From Geothrix sp. (GTDB taxonomy: Bacteria; Acidobacteriota; Holophagae; Holophagales; Holophagaceae): a stretch of DNA of 36,245 bases. Both the position numbers and the translations under genes were made by a program. Below are positions 1-36,245 of the stretch, piece after piece. The DNA lies in the NCBI GenBank assembly GCA_031292655.1, contig JARLGO010000415.1, positions 1 through 36,245 on the forward strand. Direction: 5' to 3'. Under the pieces are notes generated by a model, which was not told where the DNA came from, did no database searches, and saw only the letters and a program-made list of their open reading frames with translations. Within the stretch, counting starts at the first letter, position 1. The number at the start of each line of letters is the position of its first letter.

Positions 1-141
1 AGCCCCACGCGCTCCCAGAGCGGCTCGCAGAGCCGCCAGTAGGCCCGTTCGGAAGGACCCAGCACCACCGCCGCCACCGGCAGCAGGAGCGACTGCATCA
101 GGGGGCGGATGGCGGCGCCGGGGCTGAGCCAGCAGCCCTTG
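1..141 (-). CDS. bshC: Host gene fragment, BshC-like (bacillithiol biosynthesis), interrupted at prophage left end
   Basis: Read on the minus strand from 140 downward, the flank is open throughout and encodes a segment containing LSPGAAIRPLMQ, LLPVAAVVLGPSERAYW and EPLWERVGL. This resembles the stretch of BshC, the cysteine-adding enzyme of bacillithiol synthesis, where LSP, RPL.Q, LLP and GP.E.AY are conserved. Both ends are cut, one by the window edge and one by the prophage terminus at 142, so only about 46 residues are visible. The assignment rests on motif memory and no search was run. The other side of the prophage is a different gene (ArsR-like), so this is not a simple insertion into bshC that can be read on both sides. 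Confidence 0.55.
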
Positions 142-1528: not shown

Positions 1529-3889
1529 ATGGCCACCTGTGCCCGCCCCTCTCTATCCGAGAGCCTGGCCTCAGCCGAGGTTGTCCTGTCTGGTTGTCCT
1601 GTGGTTGTCCTGTCGAACAGGACAACAGGACAACCGGGCCTACGGACAGGACAACCGTCATTAAATGACTGCAAAGCTGAGTCTTGCTTCTCACCGAAAG
1701 ACAAGTCGGAGTCATCTTCTTTTGCCCCTACGGTTGTCCTGTTCAGTGTCCCAGAGCTGGCGGAACTGGCAGGTGTAAGCCGTCAATCGGTGCTTAAGGC
1801 GGTCCTCGCGAAGAAGCTCGAATCCGAGGTGGTCACCATCACGGAGGGGCGTCGAACAGGCCGAACTGAGCACCGGATCCACCCTTCCGCTGCATTCGCC
1901 TACTATCCCGCCGCCCGCGCCGCGTTCGAGGTCCGCCAGTCCGCCGCTCTGCCTGTGGCCACGCGCTCGGCCATGCCGGTCATCAAGCGCGACCCCCAGC
2001 AGGTCGTCCTGCGGGCCAATCCCGAGGCCCTCCAGCGGGCGCGGCAGGTCCAGCAGGCCCGGCTGAAGCTGATCGAAAAGACCCGCCTCCTCCTGGCCGA
2101 GCAAGGCCCCTCGCGCCGCTCCGCCAAAAAGGGCCTCCCCGGCGCCGTGTGCCAGGCGGCCATCACCTGGCTGTTGACCGCGCCGGAGGCCGAGGATGTG
2201 CGCCTGGTCCTGGGGGAGATCCCCAGCACCTCCACCCTTAATAGGTGGTGGGCGGCCCTGGCCGAGGACCCCAGCGGGGAGGCTCTGCGCCCCCAGTGGA
2301 GCGCCTGTGGCCGGCCCCGCAAGGTCGAGCAGGATCCCGAGCTGCTGGACAAGATCACCGGGGCCTTTGCCCACGCTGGCAGCTTCGCCTTGGCGGCCGA
2401 GCACCTGCAGAAGCAGGGCACGGCCATCAGCGAGGCCACCCTGCGCCGGGTGGTCCAGAGCCTGGATCCCGCCATCCGCATGGGATTGCGCTTTGGCAGC
2501 CGCAAGGCCCAGACCGACCTGGGGCCCTACGTCCGCCGGCGCCCCAGCGCCCCCTTCCAATGCTGGTCCATCGACGGCCACACCGAGGACTCCATGTGGA
2601 TCTGGGAGGAGCTGCTGCCCGGGGAACAGCCGAAAGGCTTCCGGCCCAACATCTATGCGGTGCGGGACGTGGGATCAGGCGCCCTCCTCAGCCTGACCGT
2701 GGGCTACAACCTCAACCGCTACCTGCCGTTCATGGCCATCGCCGAAGCCATCCTCCGGACCGGCGTCATCCCCGAGACCATCCAATCGGACAACGGCCGC
2801 GAGGTCCGGAACCGCTTCTTCCTGGGCGACGAGGACATGGTGGGCTACTTCCCCCAGCTGGCCATGGACTGGAAGGACGACGAGGCCCTCTGGCGCGGTG
2901 CGCTGCCCTACAACAGCCGCTCCAAGCCGGTGGAACGCGACTTCCTGAACGTCAAACAGCGTTTTTCAGCCCTTATTCCCACCTTCACAGGCGGAAGTCC
3001 CAGTACCAGGCCCGGCGACACCCTGGGCGAAGCCCTCAAGCGGGGCCAGATCGAGACCATCGACAGCCTGAAGATGCGCCTGGAGGCCTTCCGCGAAGCC
3101 GAGCTGGACCGCGTCCGCACCATCCACGGCCACAAGATCCACCCCCGCCAGGCCCTGGAGCAGGCCAAGGCCTCCCTCTTGCGCAGCCTGGGCCCGGAGC
3201 ACCCCCGCTTCATCCGCCCCGGCCAGGAATGGCGCGTGCTTCCGAGCCTCAAGGCCCAGAAGGCGCGGGGCTACGTCACCTGCAAGGTCGAGGGCCAGGA
3301 ATTCCGCTACAGCGCCCCCATCCTGCACGAGGTCGACGCGGACAACCTGACCGTGCGGATCAACCTCTGGGATGCCCGTCAGGCCTGGCTCTGCCGGGGC
3401 GGCGAGCTGCTGGACACCCTCACCTTCGTGCCCGATGGCCCCGAGCTGGGCGCCGCCGAGACGGATGTGGTGTCGCTCCGCATCATGCAGAACGCCAAGA
3501 AGACCCAGAAAGCCGTCATCCGGCGGGCCGAGGTTGAGCGCGACCGCATCCGCACGGCCGAAGGCTTCCAGGTGGGCCGCCCCACCCTCAAAGTGCTCCC
3601 CCAGGAGCCCATCGAGGTCAACGACCTGACGGATGACCAGCTCCGCCGCGCCCAAGAGCAGCGCCAGAAGCTGGGCCTCACTGAACCCGCCATCCCCCAG
3701 CCAGAGCCAGCCCCGGCTGATCCGGAAGCCCCGGTCCGCCTGGGCCGCGCGGGCCTCAAAGACCGCCTGGACTGGTGCCGCTACATGCTCACCAACCCGG
3801 ACGACGCGGATGACGACGAACGGCGCGATTTCCAGCGCTACCTCGACGCCAATCCCCTCGTCCGCCAACAGCTGGGCATCCCTGCCTAG
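1529..3889 (+). CDS. DDE transposase (MuA-like)
   Basis: This is the transposase that should cut and join the prophage ends during lysogenic insertion and replicative transposition. Taking the ATG at 1529, it has 786 residues. An HTH near residues 72-95 (FSVPELAELAGVSRQSV) resembles the MuA N-terminal DNA-binding region. The integrase-fold core shows the catalytic triad: D349 in CWSIDGH, D421 in IQSDNGRE and E469 in SKPVERDF. A Mu-type C-terminal beta-barrel region and a Q/P/A-rich tail follow; the tail probably contacts the MuB-like ATPase. The open frame continues upstream to 1397, but that part overlaps the Ner-like gene, so 1529 is preferred although its ribosome site is poor. The first 70 residues are S/T-rich and are encoded across the seven-copy DNA repeat cluster. 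Confidence 0.93.
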   Translation: MATCARPSLSESLASAEVVLSGCPVVVLSNRTTGQPGLRTGQPSLNDCKAESCFSPKDKSESSSFAPTVVLFSVPELAELAGVSRQSVLKAVLAKKLESEVVTITEGRRTGRTEHRIHPSAAFAYYPAARAAFEVRQSAALPVATRSAMPVIKRDPQQVVLRANPEALQRARQVQQARLKLIEKTRLLLAEQGPSRRSAKKGLPGAVCQAAITWLLTAPEAEDVRLVLGEIPSTSTLNRWWAALAEDPSGEALRPQWSACGRPRKVEQDPELLDKITGAFAHAGSFALAAEHLQKQGTAISEATLRRVVQSLDPAIRMGLRFGSRKAQTDLGPYVRRRPSAPFQCWSIDGHTEDSMWIWEELLPGEQPKGFRPNIYAVRDVGSGALLSLTVGYNLNRYLPFMAIAEAILRTGVIPETIQSDNGREVRNRFFLGDEDMVGYFPQLAMDWKDDEALWRGALPYNSRSKPVERDFLNVKQRFSALIPTFTGGSPSTRPGDTLGEALKRGQIETIDSLKMRLEAFREAELDRVRTIHGHKIHPRQALEQAKASLLRSLGPEHPRFIRPGQEWRVLPSLKAQKARGYVTCKVEGQEFRYSAPILHEVDADNLTVRINLWDARQAWLCRGGELLDTLTFVPDGPELGAAETDVVSLRIMQNAKKTQKAVIRRAEVERDRIRTAEGFQVGRPTLKVLPQEPIEVNDLTDDQLRRAQEQRQKLGLTEPAIPQPEPAPADPEAPVRLGRAGLKDRLDWCRYMLTNPDDADDDERRDFQRYLDANPLVRQQLGIPA
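1579..1742. repeat. Cluster of seven GGTTGTCCTGT sites (3 direct, 3 inverted, 1 direct)
   Basis: Copies of GGTTGTCCTGT lie at 1579, 1592 and 1603 on the plus strand. Inverted copies follow at 1617..1626 (10 of 11), 1625..1635 and 1646..1656, and a last plus-strand copy is at 1732..1742. Copies 2 and 3 are directly adjacent; copies 3 and 4 form a 10-bp perfect inverted repeat with a three-base centre. The copies fall in different codon phases of the transposase gene, so selection acts on DNA (or RNA) rather than on a protein repeat. By analogy with the Mu internal enhancer/operator cluster, this may be a transposition enhancer or repressor-binding array; that role is inferred. Confidence 0.8.
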
Positions 3890-3923: not shown

Positions 3924-4691
3924 TTGCACCAAGTTTTCTGCCACACCGTCAGCAACGTCTCGCGCCTGTTGGCCGGCATCGCCATCGTCCAGGAGCGAGG
4001 CGCGGCCGAGGCCTGCCAGATGCTCGTCACCGGGCAGCCCGGCCTGGGCAAGACCGAGACCCTGGGCTGGTATGTCACCCAGCAGCCCTATGCCGTCTAC
4101 CTTCGGGCCAAGTCGGGCTGGACGCGCCATTGGTTCCTGAATGACCTGCTGGCCGAGCTGGGCGAAGCGCCCGCCCGCCTCACCGAGGACATGTTCAAGC
4201 AGGCCCTGGCCGCCCTGGCCCGCAAGCCCTACATCCTGGTCGTGGACGAGGTCGAACACGCCCTCAATGATACCCGCGTGCTGGAGGCCATCCGCGACTT
4301 CAGCGACCTGCTGCGGCTCCCCACCGTCTTGGTGGGCATGGCCGAGGTTCGCAACAAGATCGCCCGGCATCCCCAGGTCCAAAGCCGCATCGCCACCATC
4401 GTCACCTTCCAGCCCGCCACCCTGGAGGACGTGAAGGCTACGGCCATGATGCTGCTGGAGGGCGGCGTGGCCATCACCGACGAGGTGGCCGAGCTGATCC
4501 ACTTGCGCTCCGAAGGCCGCATGCGCCTGGTGCTGAACGGCCTGGCGGCCTGCGAGCGCGTGGCCCGGCTGCGGAAGACCAAGACCGTGGGCCTGGCCGA
4601 AGTCAAGGATGTGGAGCTGGTCCACGACTGGCAGTCCCGCAAGCCCCAGACCCTGAAGCCCCAGGCCCGTGGGGCGAAGGAATCGCTGTGA
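3924..4691 (+). CDS. AAA+ ATPase, transposition target-selection protein (MuB-like)
   Basis: This 255-residue ATPase should bind target DNA non-specifically, activate the transposase and direct strand transfer. Walker A is GQPGLGKT at residues 37-44, and Walker B is ILVVDEVEH with D108 and E109. The later part (TVLVGMAEVRNKIARHPQVQ) resembles sensor and arginine-containing segments of the TniB/MuB group. The TTG at 3924 is chosen because a GGAGGAGG ribosome site lies 5-13 bases before it and no ATG is suitably placed; the open frame extends upstream only as overlap with the transposase gene. It lacks the N-terminal HTH domain of Mu B, being shorter than Mu B (312 residues). Its stop overlaps the GTG of the next gene. 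Confidence 0.9.
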   Translation: MHQVFCHTVSNVSRLLAGIAIVQERGAAEACQMLVTGQPGLGKTETLGWYVTQQPYAVYLRAKSGWTRHWFLNDLLAELGEAPARLTEDMFKQALAALARKPYILVVDEVEHALNDTRVLEAIRDFSDLLRLPTVLVGMAEVRNKIARHPQVQSRIATIVTFQPATLEDVKATAMMLLEGGVAITDEVAELIHLRSEGRMRLVLNGLAACERVARLRKTKTVGLAEVKDVELVHDWQSRKPQTLKPQARGAKESL

Positions 4692-6585: not shown

Positions 6586-6981
6586 TTGAATCAGCTGCTG
6601 CAGGACCTGAACCTGCCCCGGCGCCCCATGGGCTACCTGAGCGCCCCCATGAGCGCCCCCGATGCCCTGACCCGCGCCAAGCACCGCTTCCTGGCCCTGG
6701 ACGCCTCCCATCACCTGTGGGAGGCCGAGATCCTGCACTACTGCCCCATGGCCAACGCACCCATCATCGGCACCTCCGATGTGCATTATGAGGTCTGGAT
6801 GGCCATGGACCTGGAGGTCCTGCGCCGCTGTGACTACATCCTGCTGGTGGGGGAATGGGGCACGAGCGCAGGGTGCCGCCGCGAGCTGGCCATGGCCCGG
6901 AGCCTGGGCAAGCCGGTCGTCTTCAACGTGGAGGACGCCATCACCCTGGATCGGGAACTGCTGGGACGGATCGTCTCGTGA
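6586..6981 (+). CDS. DUF4406 / nucleoside deoxyribosyltransferase-like protein
   Basis: The 131-residue product starts at TTG 6586 (GGGGGTG upstream) or possibly ATG 6628. The features GYLSAPMS near the start, HYEVWMAMDLEVLRRCDYIL in the middle and EWGTSAGCRRELAMARSLGK then PVVF fit the Rossmann-like fold of the nucleoside 2-deoxyribosyltransferase/DUF4406 group, with an acid in the E-x-GC-xxE segment. Members cleave or exchange N-glycosidic bonds of nucleosides or nucleotides, so a role in phage nucleotide metabolism is possible. The N-terminal part is shorter than usual and activity is not shown by the sequence. Confidence 0.6.
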   Translation: MNQLLQDLNLPRRPMGYLSAPMSAPDALTRAKHRFLALDASHHLWEAEILHYCPMANAPIIGTSDVHYEVWMAMDLEVLRRCDYILLVGEWGTSAGCRRELAMARSLGKPVVFNVEDAITLDRELLGRIVS

Positions 6982-7652
6982 CCAGCGAACCCGCCACCGC
7001 CCGGCCCTTGCCCTGCCTGATCCACATCCAGGGCGAGGACTACGTCTGGACCGAGGAGGGCGGCCTGGACCCCGCCGCCGTCCTCACACTCCGGCGGTTC
7101 ATCTGGCGCGAGGCCAAGCGCTACGCATCGGTCGGCCTCCGCTCCGGTTTGTCCCTGGAGGACCTGGCCCAGGAGGGGCAGCATGGCGCCCTGGTGGCCG
7201 CCCGTCGCTTCGATCCCACCAAGGGCCTCCGGTTCATCACCTATGCCGTCTGGTGGATCCGCGCCCGCATCCTGAACGCCCTGCGCAAGCACATGGTCTA
7301 CGTGCCGAAGGAAGTGGCCCGGGCCCTGCGCCAGAACGGCGGCCTGCCGCCCGTCTGCTCCCTCGATCTACCCCTGTTCGCCGACGGGACCACCCTCGGC
7401 CAATGCCTGGCCGGCGAATTCGACCAGACCACCACGGAAGCCCCGGTCGTGGCCCTGGAAGTCCGGCGCCTGGTCCGCAAACTCAAGCCCAGAGAGCAGC
7501 ACATCCTTGTCCGGCACTACGGCCTTGATGGCCAGCCTGCCGAAACCCTGGCCGCCGTCGCCGTCACCCTGGGCTTGAGCCGCGGGCGCGTCCGTCAACT
7601 GGAGAGCCAGGCTCTGGCCCAGCTCCGGAAAGTCATCGCCTTCAAAGGCTGA
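6978..7652 (+). CDS. Phage-encoded sigma-70-family factor
   Basis: This 224-residue protein starts at GTG 6978, overlapping the previous stop. Residues about 35-105 match sigma region 2: LSLEDLAQEGQHGALVAARR then FDPTKGLRFITYAVWWIRAR, including the core-binding helix and the -10-recognition W-W-IR pattern. Residues about 165-222 match region 4 (LKPREQHILVRHYGLDGQ, then LGLSRGRVRQLESQALAQLR), which reads -35 elements. No region 1.1 is present and region 3 is short. It would redirect host RNA polymerase to phage promoters. In Mu, middle and late transcription depend on Mor and C, and neither was seen here, so this gene is the best candidate for the late switch. Confidence 0.88.
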   Translation: MTSEPATARPLPCLIHIQGEDYVWTEEGGLDPAAVLTLRRFIWREAKRYASVGLRSGLSLEDLAQEGQHGALVAARRFDPTKGLRFITYAVWWIRARILNALRKHMVYVPKEVARALRQNGGLPPVCSLDLPLFADGTTLGQCLAGEFDQTTTEAPVVALEVRRLVRKLKPREQHILVRHYGLDGQPAETLAAVAVTLGLSRGRVRQLESQALAQLRKVIAFKG

Positions 7653-36074: not shown

Positions 36075-36106
36075 TCAAAAAGAATGGAAGTTCCAATCAT
36101 TTTGAA
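36074..36106. repeat. Right-end palindromic pair of transposase-type sites
   Basis: TTCAAAAAGAATGGAA on the plus strand is followed by TTCCAATCATTTTGAA, its inverted relative (14 of 16 matching), around a single G. The plus-strand half continues as GTT, making it identical over 19 bp to the left-end site at 350. Two head-to-head binding sites are the simplest reading. Confidence 0.75.
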
Positions 36107-36116
36107 CCCGCCACCT

Positions 36117-36138
36117 GGATTCTTTTTGACGCGCCACA
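36117..36138 (-). repeat. Right terminus with outermost transposase-type site (R1)
   Basis: Read inward, TGTGGCGCGTCAAAAAGAAT matches the left terminus in TGTG, CGTC and most of the A-rich block. The terminal CA at 36137..36138 is the expected Mu-family end. Confidence 0.75.
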
Positions 36139-36245
36139 GTCATCCCCGCGAGCCCGGCCAGGGCCTCGACCGTCCGGGGACTCTGCGCCAGGAGGTCCAG
36201 CAGTTCCATCCGCTTCGGATTGGCTAGGCCCTTGGCCAGGCGGGC
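36139..36245 (-). CDS. Host gene fragment, ArsR-family regulator, at prophage right end
   Basis: On the minus strand the flank is open and reads ARLAKGLANPKRMELLDLLA, then QSPRTVEALAGLAGMT. This matches the first helices of ArsR-type winged-helix regulators. The gene is cut by the window edge on one side and by the prophage on the other. The opposite flank is not the rest of this gene but a BshC-like fragment. Confidence 0.65.

Follow-up and report, generated by a model that had tools for sequence, protein, structure and literature searches.

An array of repeats inside the transposase gene of Mu-like phages of Acidobacteria, probably a transposition enhancer read by the encoded transposase

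INTRODUCTION

Mu and D108 are reported to have different enhancers, matched to the N-termini of their transposases. The Mu enhancer lies in an AT-rich segment to the right of the repressor gene (PMC5977238) and is drawn as an operator/enhancer (PMC3820752); it is bound by the Iα domain of MuA, a winged helix (PMC3362531). Our repeat finder likewise places a cluster of the Mu genome in the segment right of the repressor. Mu A and the Mu repressor c both match PF02316, the family of the Iα head, which accounts for their common site.

We analysed a window, by which we mean the whole stretch of 36,245 bp from Geothrix sp. (assembly GCA_031292655.1, contig JARLGO010000415.1). There, a Mu-like prophage carries seven copies of the word GGTTGTCCTGT in its transposase (A) gene, all within the first 70 codons.

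THE PROPHAGE AND ITS ENDS

The array-bearing prophage (142-36138) is complete and Mu-like, with genes for repressor, Ner-like protein, transposase and ATPase in the usual order. Its features are as follows.

142-162, + strand: prophage left end, TGTGAACCGTCGAAATGATTC; same end in L008, L010, L011 and L012
243-259, 287-303 and 349-365, + strand: left-end transposase-type boxes, TTGCAAAAAGAATGGAA, direct repeats
376-1086, - strand: c-type repressor, HTH_31/HTH_3 (Pfam 3e-13)
1120-1168, no strand: candidate c and Ner operators, TAGCCATAACGGGTA/TACCCGTGAAGGCTA and GGCTAAGG-CCTTAGCC, inverted repeats in the c-ner gap
1183-1524, + strand: Ner-like regulator (PHROG transcriptional-regulator matches, ~1e-5; position; C-terminal WGR motif common to relatives)
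1529-3889, + strand: transposase A, MuA-type DDE (phrog_310, PHROG 3.5e-45; relatives' profile A2 matches MuA 4fcy at 7e-9)
1529-1738, + strand: linker holding the array, translated, predicted disordered (open frame 16/16; pLDDT ~25, residues 1-68)
1739-1912, + strand: N-terminal winged helix (the head), MerR/excisionase-type, proposed array reader (AlphaFold2 pLDDT 84; Foldseek; HTH_17; covariation)
3924-4691, + strand: B-type AAA+ ATPase (AAA_22/TniB; phrog_296 4e-49; start codon inferred)
36076-36138, + strand: prophage right end with boxes, ending GACGCGCCACA

The family has TG...CA ends and a 5-bp target duplication, as expected of Mu-like transposable phages; the duplication is perfect in L011 (ATCAG) and in L010 (AAGAA). 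A 14-base end box, CAAAAAGAATGGAA, is kept in five relatives that have three different array words. By its catalytic core and the match to phrog_310, transposase A is of the MuA-type DDE class, with a partner ATPase that matches phrog_296, and the transposase of one relative, L030, matches Mu-transpos_C (1.5e-19) and rve (8e-10). The palindromes of the c-ner gap are unrelated to the array word; they are candidate operators of c or Ner, and we infer which belongs to which.

Two further observations concern gene content. The early region of the window (6855-7652) encodes a sigma-70-type factor with regions 2 and 4, and L028 and L030 have an extra small helix-turn-helix gene between ner and A.

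THE ARRAY IN THE WINDOW

The copies of the word are listed here, with the spacer that separates the cluster from the distal copy.

1579-1589, + strand: copy 1, exact
1592-1602, + strand: copy 2, exact
1603-1613, + strand: copy 3, exact; opens the conserved F-R-R (forward, reverse, reverse) core
1617-1627, - strand: copy 4, one mismatch; outside the conserved core
1625-1635, - strand: copy 5, exact; 21 bp from copy 3 in register
1646-1656, - strand: copy 6, exact; 21 bp from copy 5
1657-1731, no strand: spacer; R-to-F spacing 87 bp in the window, 63-87 in relatives
1732-1742, + strand: copy 7, distal, exact; at the first helix-turn-helix codons

The six exact 11-mers and one 10-of-11 copy of the original prediction (1579-1742) are thus reproduced at exactly the positions claimed, in the claimed order of three forward, three reverse and one forward. 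In the common register of the family the core reads F -21 bp- R -21 bp- R -87 bp- F.

The array is real and far beyond chance. Beyond the array, a single exact copy of GGTTGTCCTGT is present in the 3.3 Mb assembly, where chance alone would give ~1.6; this is an isolated match on C115, consistent with chance. Dinucleotide-type shuffles of the linker never score above 8.8 for their best 9-mer; the linker itself reaches 21.0. Synonymous shuffles that kept the peptide and the gene's own codons (n=60) gave at most three copies, against the seven observed. The array is an internal cis site between the prophage ends, 1.4 kb from the left one, and its sequence differs from that of the end boxes. An end-binding role was considered and rejected, as the end boxes are different and stay constant while the word changes.

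CONSERVATION IN RELATIVES

Relatives were drawn from Geothrix, other Holophagaceae and viral contigs, and are not independent of one another. Sixteen sequences have a complete A start: the window, L008, L010, L011, L012, L028, L029, L030, L031, L032, L033, L037, L040, L084, L143 and L097. In all 16 the segment from start codon to helix-turn-helix holds an array that scores above shuffled sequence. The geometry is nearly fixed: F -21- R -21- R, a gap of 63, 72-75, 84 or 87 bp, and a distal F, to which many arrays add another F copy 9-12 bp further along. Whole-turn spacing of the distal copy is suggestive only (P ~0.07). The arrays of L010 and L012 start with an extra reverse copy, that of L011 is weak and incomplete, and that of L029 is incomplete, with no distal copy within two mismatches.

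About ten different words occupy this one register geometry; both words and register come from a scripted motif search, with some setting by hand.

GTTGTCCTGT: window, L008
GTTGCCCTGA: L032
TGTCGCCTGA and close variants: L010, L012, L084, L029
GGTGCAGCG: L040, L143, L097
GTTGTCGCGA: L030
GTTGACGCGA: L033
GTTGCACCGT: L028
GTTTACCG: L011
GTTCCTCTGT: L031
GTTCCGCGGT: L037

Between relatives, identity is 88-96% inside copies versus 35-61% in the linker outside them (P down to 3e-17); for the window and L008, the copies are 96% identical and the surrounding linker 39%. Comparison of these sequences shows the copies to be under selection at the DNA level. Conservation in relatives, on which the original prediction had staked itself, therefore holds for the array, kept in 16/16; the word itself varies.

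INSERTION SITES AND OTHER REPEATS

Mu-like phages insert almost at random. All five family prophages that have both a phage/host junction and a callable tRNA (L011, 3420-3591; L010/L245; L029; L030; L033) lie 78-120 bp downstream of a tRNA 3′ end, which suggests target choice near tRNA genes in this family. The neighbour is tRNA-Ser (gct) twice, adjoining the right end once and the left end once, and tRNA-Pro three times. L031 and L040 have tRNA-like 3′ halves before their left ends that ARAGORN did not call.

The host flanks of the window (1-141 and 36139-36245) belong to two different loci with no target duplication between them, and both loci are also present uninterrupted in the same assembly (C354, C87); there is no tRNA near either. 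Such split flanks are a sign of active transposition or of packaged phage DNA in the sequenced material.

In two viral contigs a tandem ACGCAATA array of 10-12 copies follows just after the transposase gene (L047, 5189-5280; L048, 3115-3225). A search for the ends of a second transposase group through shared repeated boxes did not yield them.

THE LINKER AND THE HEAD

The original prediction had asked whether translation of A begins at 1529 or later. A start at about 1529 is favoured: frame 0 runs through the linker without a stop in 16/16 relatives, stops interrupt the other two forward frames in nearly every case, and by inspection the only in-frame ATG, GTG or TTG between 1529 and the helix-turn-helix is the GTG at 1601. 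The full-length transposase model (mean pLDDT 51) was used for the disordered linker and the head only; since residues 1-68 are disordered in it, the linker peptide is probably dictated by the DNA that it carries.

Foldseek matches of the head include BldC, Xis, RacA and Cox, all with E-values >0.02, which identifies the fold class only; MuA Iα is absent among the structure matches listed. HTH_17 was found in 11 of the 17 family heads, and PF02316 in none of the 17.

COVARIATION OF WORD AND HEAD

The word tracks the winged-helix head (Mantel r=0.76, P=5e-5), unchanged after correction for the transposase body; correlations with the body (r=0.09) and with Ner (r=-0.20) are not significant. Within the head, the columns of the recognition helix covary most (mean r 0.39 vs 0.15, P=4e-4). 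Two prophages of one genome, L029 and L030, have transposase bodies 97% identical, heads 26% identical, and words that differ at 7/10 positions. The reverse case is given by L010/L012 on one side and L029/L084 on the other: between these two pairs the bodies are 26% identical, yet the word (TGTCGCC) is nearly unchanged and the recognition helix (TIQR/SIQR) is shared.

Adjacency of array and head is a confound, in that a cassette would move the two together and some of the correlation could come from linkage alone. Its effect is limited by the absence of correlation with Ner, which adjoins the array on the other side, and by the concentration of the signal in the recognition helix. Moreover, the copies change together while the surrounding linker diverges, and this calls for a common reader.

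Standard Mu-like viral contigs (L053, L085, L145, L154, L168, L208 and others) have variable-word arrays upstream of A, and there too the N-terminal domain is what the word tracks (r=0.25, P=1e-4), the body not being significant; three domains were set by hand for this test after a first automatic run (r=0.15, P=0.014). These arrays are a positive control for inferring a reader from a word. In L085, L145, L154, L168, L180, L193, L208 and others the upstream layout is R-F-F-R, ~70 bp, then F, with differing words; such layouts, apparently enhancer/operator arrays, lend themselves to a catalogue covering transposable phages.

A PROBABLE ENHANCER WITHIN A

We put at roughly 0.7 the probability that the array serves this Mu-like phage as its transposition enhancer and is bound by the N-terminal winged helix of the very transposase in whose gene it lies. 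The best reading of the sequence comparisons is that the enhancer has moved into the A gene and become separated from the repressor operators, so that A seems to contain a control switch for its own protein. Of the original proposal, a transposition enhancer or operator array inside A, the enhancer half is strongly supported by presence in 16/16, fixed helical spacing and word-head covariation; the half that made it a repressor or Ner operator is not supported, the word tracking neither Ner nor, in the few pairs compared, the repressor.

By analogy with MuA, transposase protomers would bind the end boxes through inner DNA-binding domains, and their N-terminal heads would bind the array. In the F-21-R-21-R cluster, neighbouring heads would stand two turns apart on the same side of the helix, and with the distal copy ~6-8 turns off, the spacer would loop or bend. 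No IHF consensus (WATCAANNNNTTR, up to one mismatch) was found near the array; other proteins may bend the spacer. Both ends and the array would be gathered into one complex before cleavage, and the array would stimulate transposition in this way. Since the linker codons that hold the array immediately precede those of the head, inheritance or exchange can carry site and reader along together, as one cassette.

ALTERNATIVE EXPLANATIONS

The same word-head covariation would arise if the head bound the gene that encodes it so as to repress transcription or keep transposase levels down, and took no part in transpososome assembly. An intragenic array near the 5′ end of A would suit such autoregulation, and MerR/Xis-type heads are common in regulators. 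We consider it unlikely as the sole role, however, since rigid two-turn phasing with a separate distal cluster better fits an assembly scaffold, which the parallel case of the upstream arrays in standard Mu-like phages also favours. The two roles may coexist, the array also regulating expression of A.

Control of A translation by an RNA element, with hairpins between inverted copies in the message, is improbable. Folding of the window segment is indeed much stronger than that of shuffles (z=-4.97), and each relative has a hairpin formed by its F-21-R pair. Any inverted DNA array folds likewise, however, and RNA pairing leaves unexplained why there are distal copies, why direct copies keep a fixed helical spacing and why the word matches the recognition helix. 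No Rfam family reached its gathering score.

Slightly less probable still is an operator array for the c repressor or Ner. Overlap of the Mu enhancer with operators, reflected in the label cited above (PMC3820752), and the early location in the phage speak for it. Yet the word fails to follow Ner or, in the few usable comparisons, the repressor; the c-ner gap has palindromes of its own; and repressor (HTH_31/HTH_3) and transposase head (HTH_17/MerR-like) are different domain types. L011 and L012 have the two most similar repressors of those compared (57% identical at the N-terminus), yet their words are among the most different; the window and L008 have the same word, and their repressors are ~27-29% identical. 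This comparison rests mainly on the window, L011 and L012, the choice of repressor ORF being doubtful in L008 and L010.

A repeated peptide or neutral expansion without DNA function, suggested by the low-complexity coding sequence in which the copies lie, is ruled out by the comparison of relatives, the copies being on both strands, in different codon phases, more numerous than in synonymous shuffles, and kept while the peptide outside them diverges.

COMPARISON WITH MU AND OTHER SYSTEMS

With the enhancer reading preferred, array and head may tentatively be seen as an exchangeable specificity cassette, in which recombination swaps enhancer and reader together. If so, co-resident phages with near-identical transposases, such as L029 and L030, would act only on genomes with their own enhancer, and the ten words with their recognition helices would amount to a natural DNA-recognition code for this winged-helix family. 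If the array is an enhancer, the best-studied case of the transposition enhancer principle would here have entered the coding sequence of its transposase, uncoupled from repressor control. The roughly ten words and their heads would also form a natural set of matched site/reader pairs, in which one genome even supplies a swap between its two prophages. Exchanging words and heads would then allow a direct test of why an enhancer is needed by Mu at all, an old question, and of whether it serves as a self-recognition tag.

MerR/excisionase-type winged helices (BldC, phage Xis, RacA, Cox) are of the same fold class as the head, although they are regulators or recombination directionality factors rather than transposase heads. 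The arrays of standard Mu-like phages resemble those of the family in having a cluster and a distal copy ~65-90 bp off and a word that follows the N-terminal domain, but lie ~0.5-1.9 kb before A, in the c-ner region where ORFs were mapped. Like the Mu enhancer, the array is internal and in cis, ~1-1.5 kb from the left end and apart from the end-binding sites (PMC3362531, PMC5977238), with clustered copies and one more across a gap (~70 bp in Mu). As its word covaries with the head, it would also be served by the transposase N-terminal winged helix, like the Mu enhancer. The array differs from the Mu enhancer in lying in the translated 5′ end of A instead of the segment right of c, in apparently not being shared with the repressor, in a head that is HTH_17/MerR-like rather than PF02316, and in a spacer without an IHF consensus. 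This intragenic, transposase-read array is best explained as a variant of the Mu enhancer.
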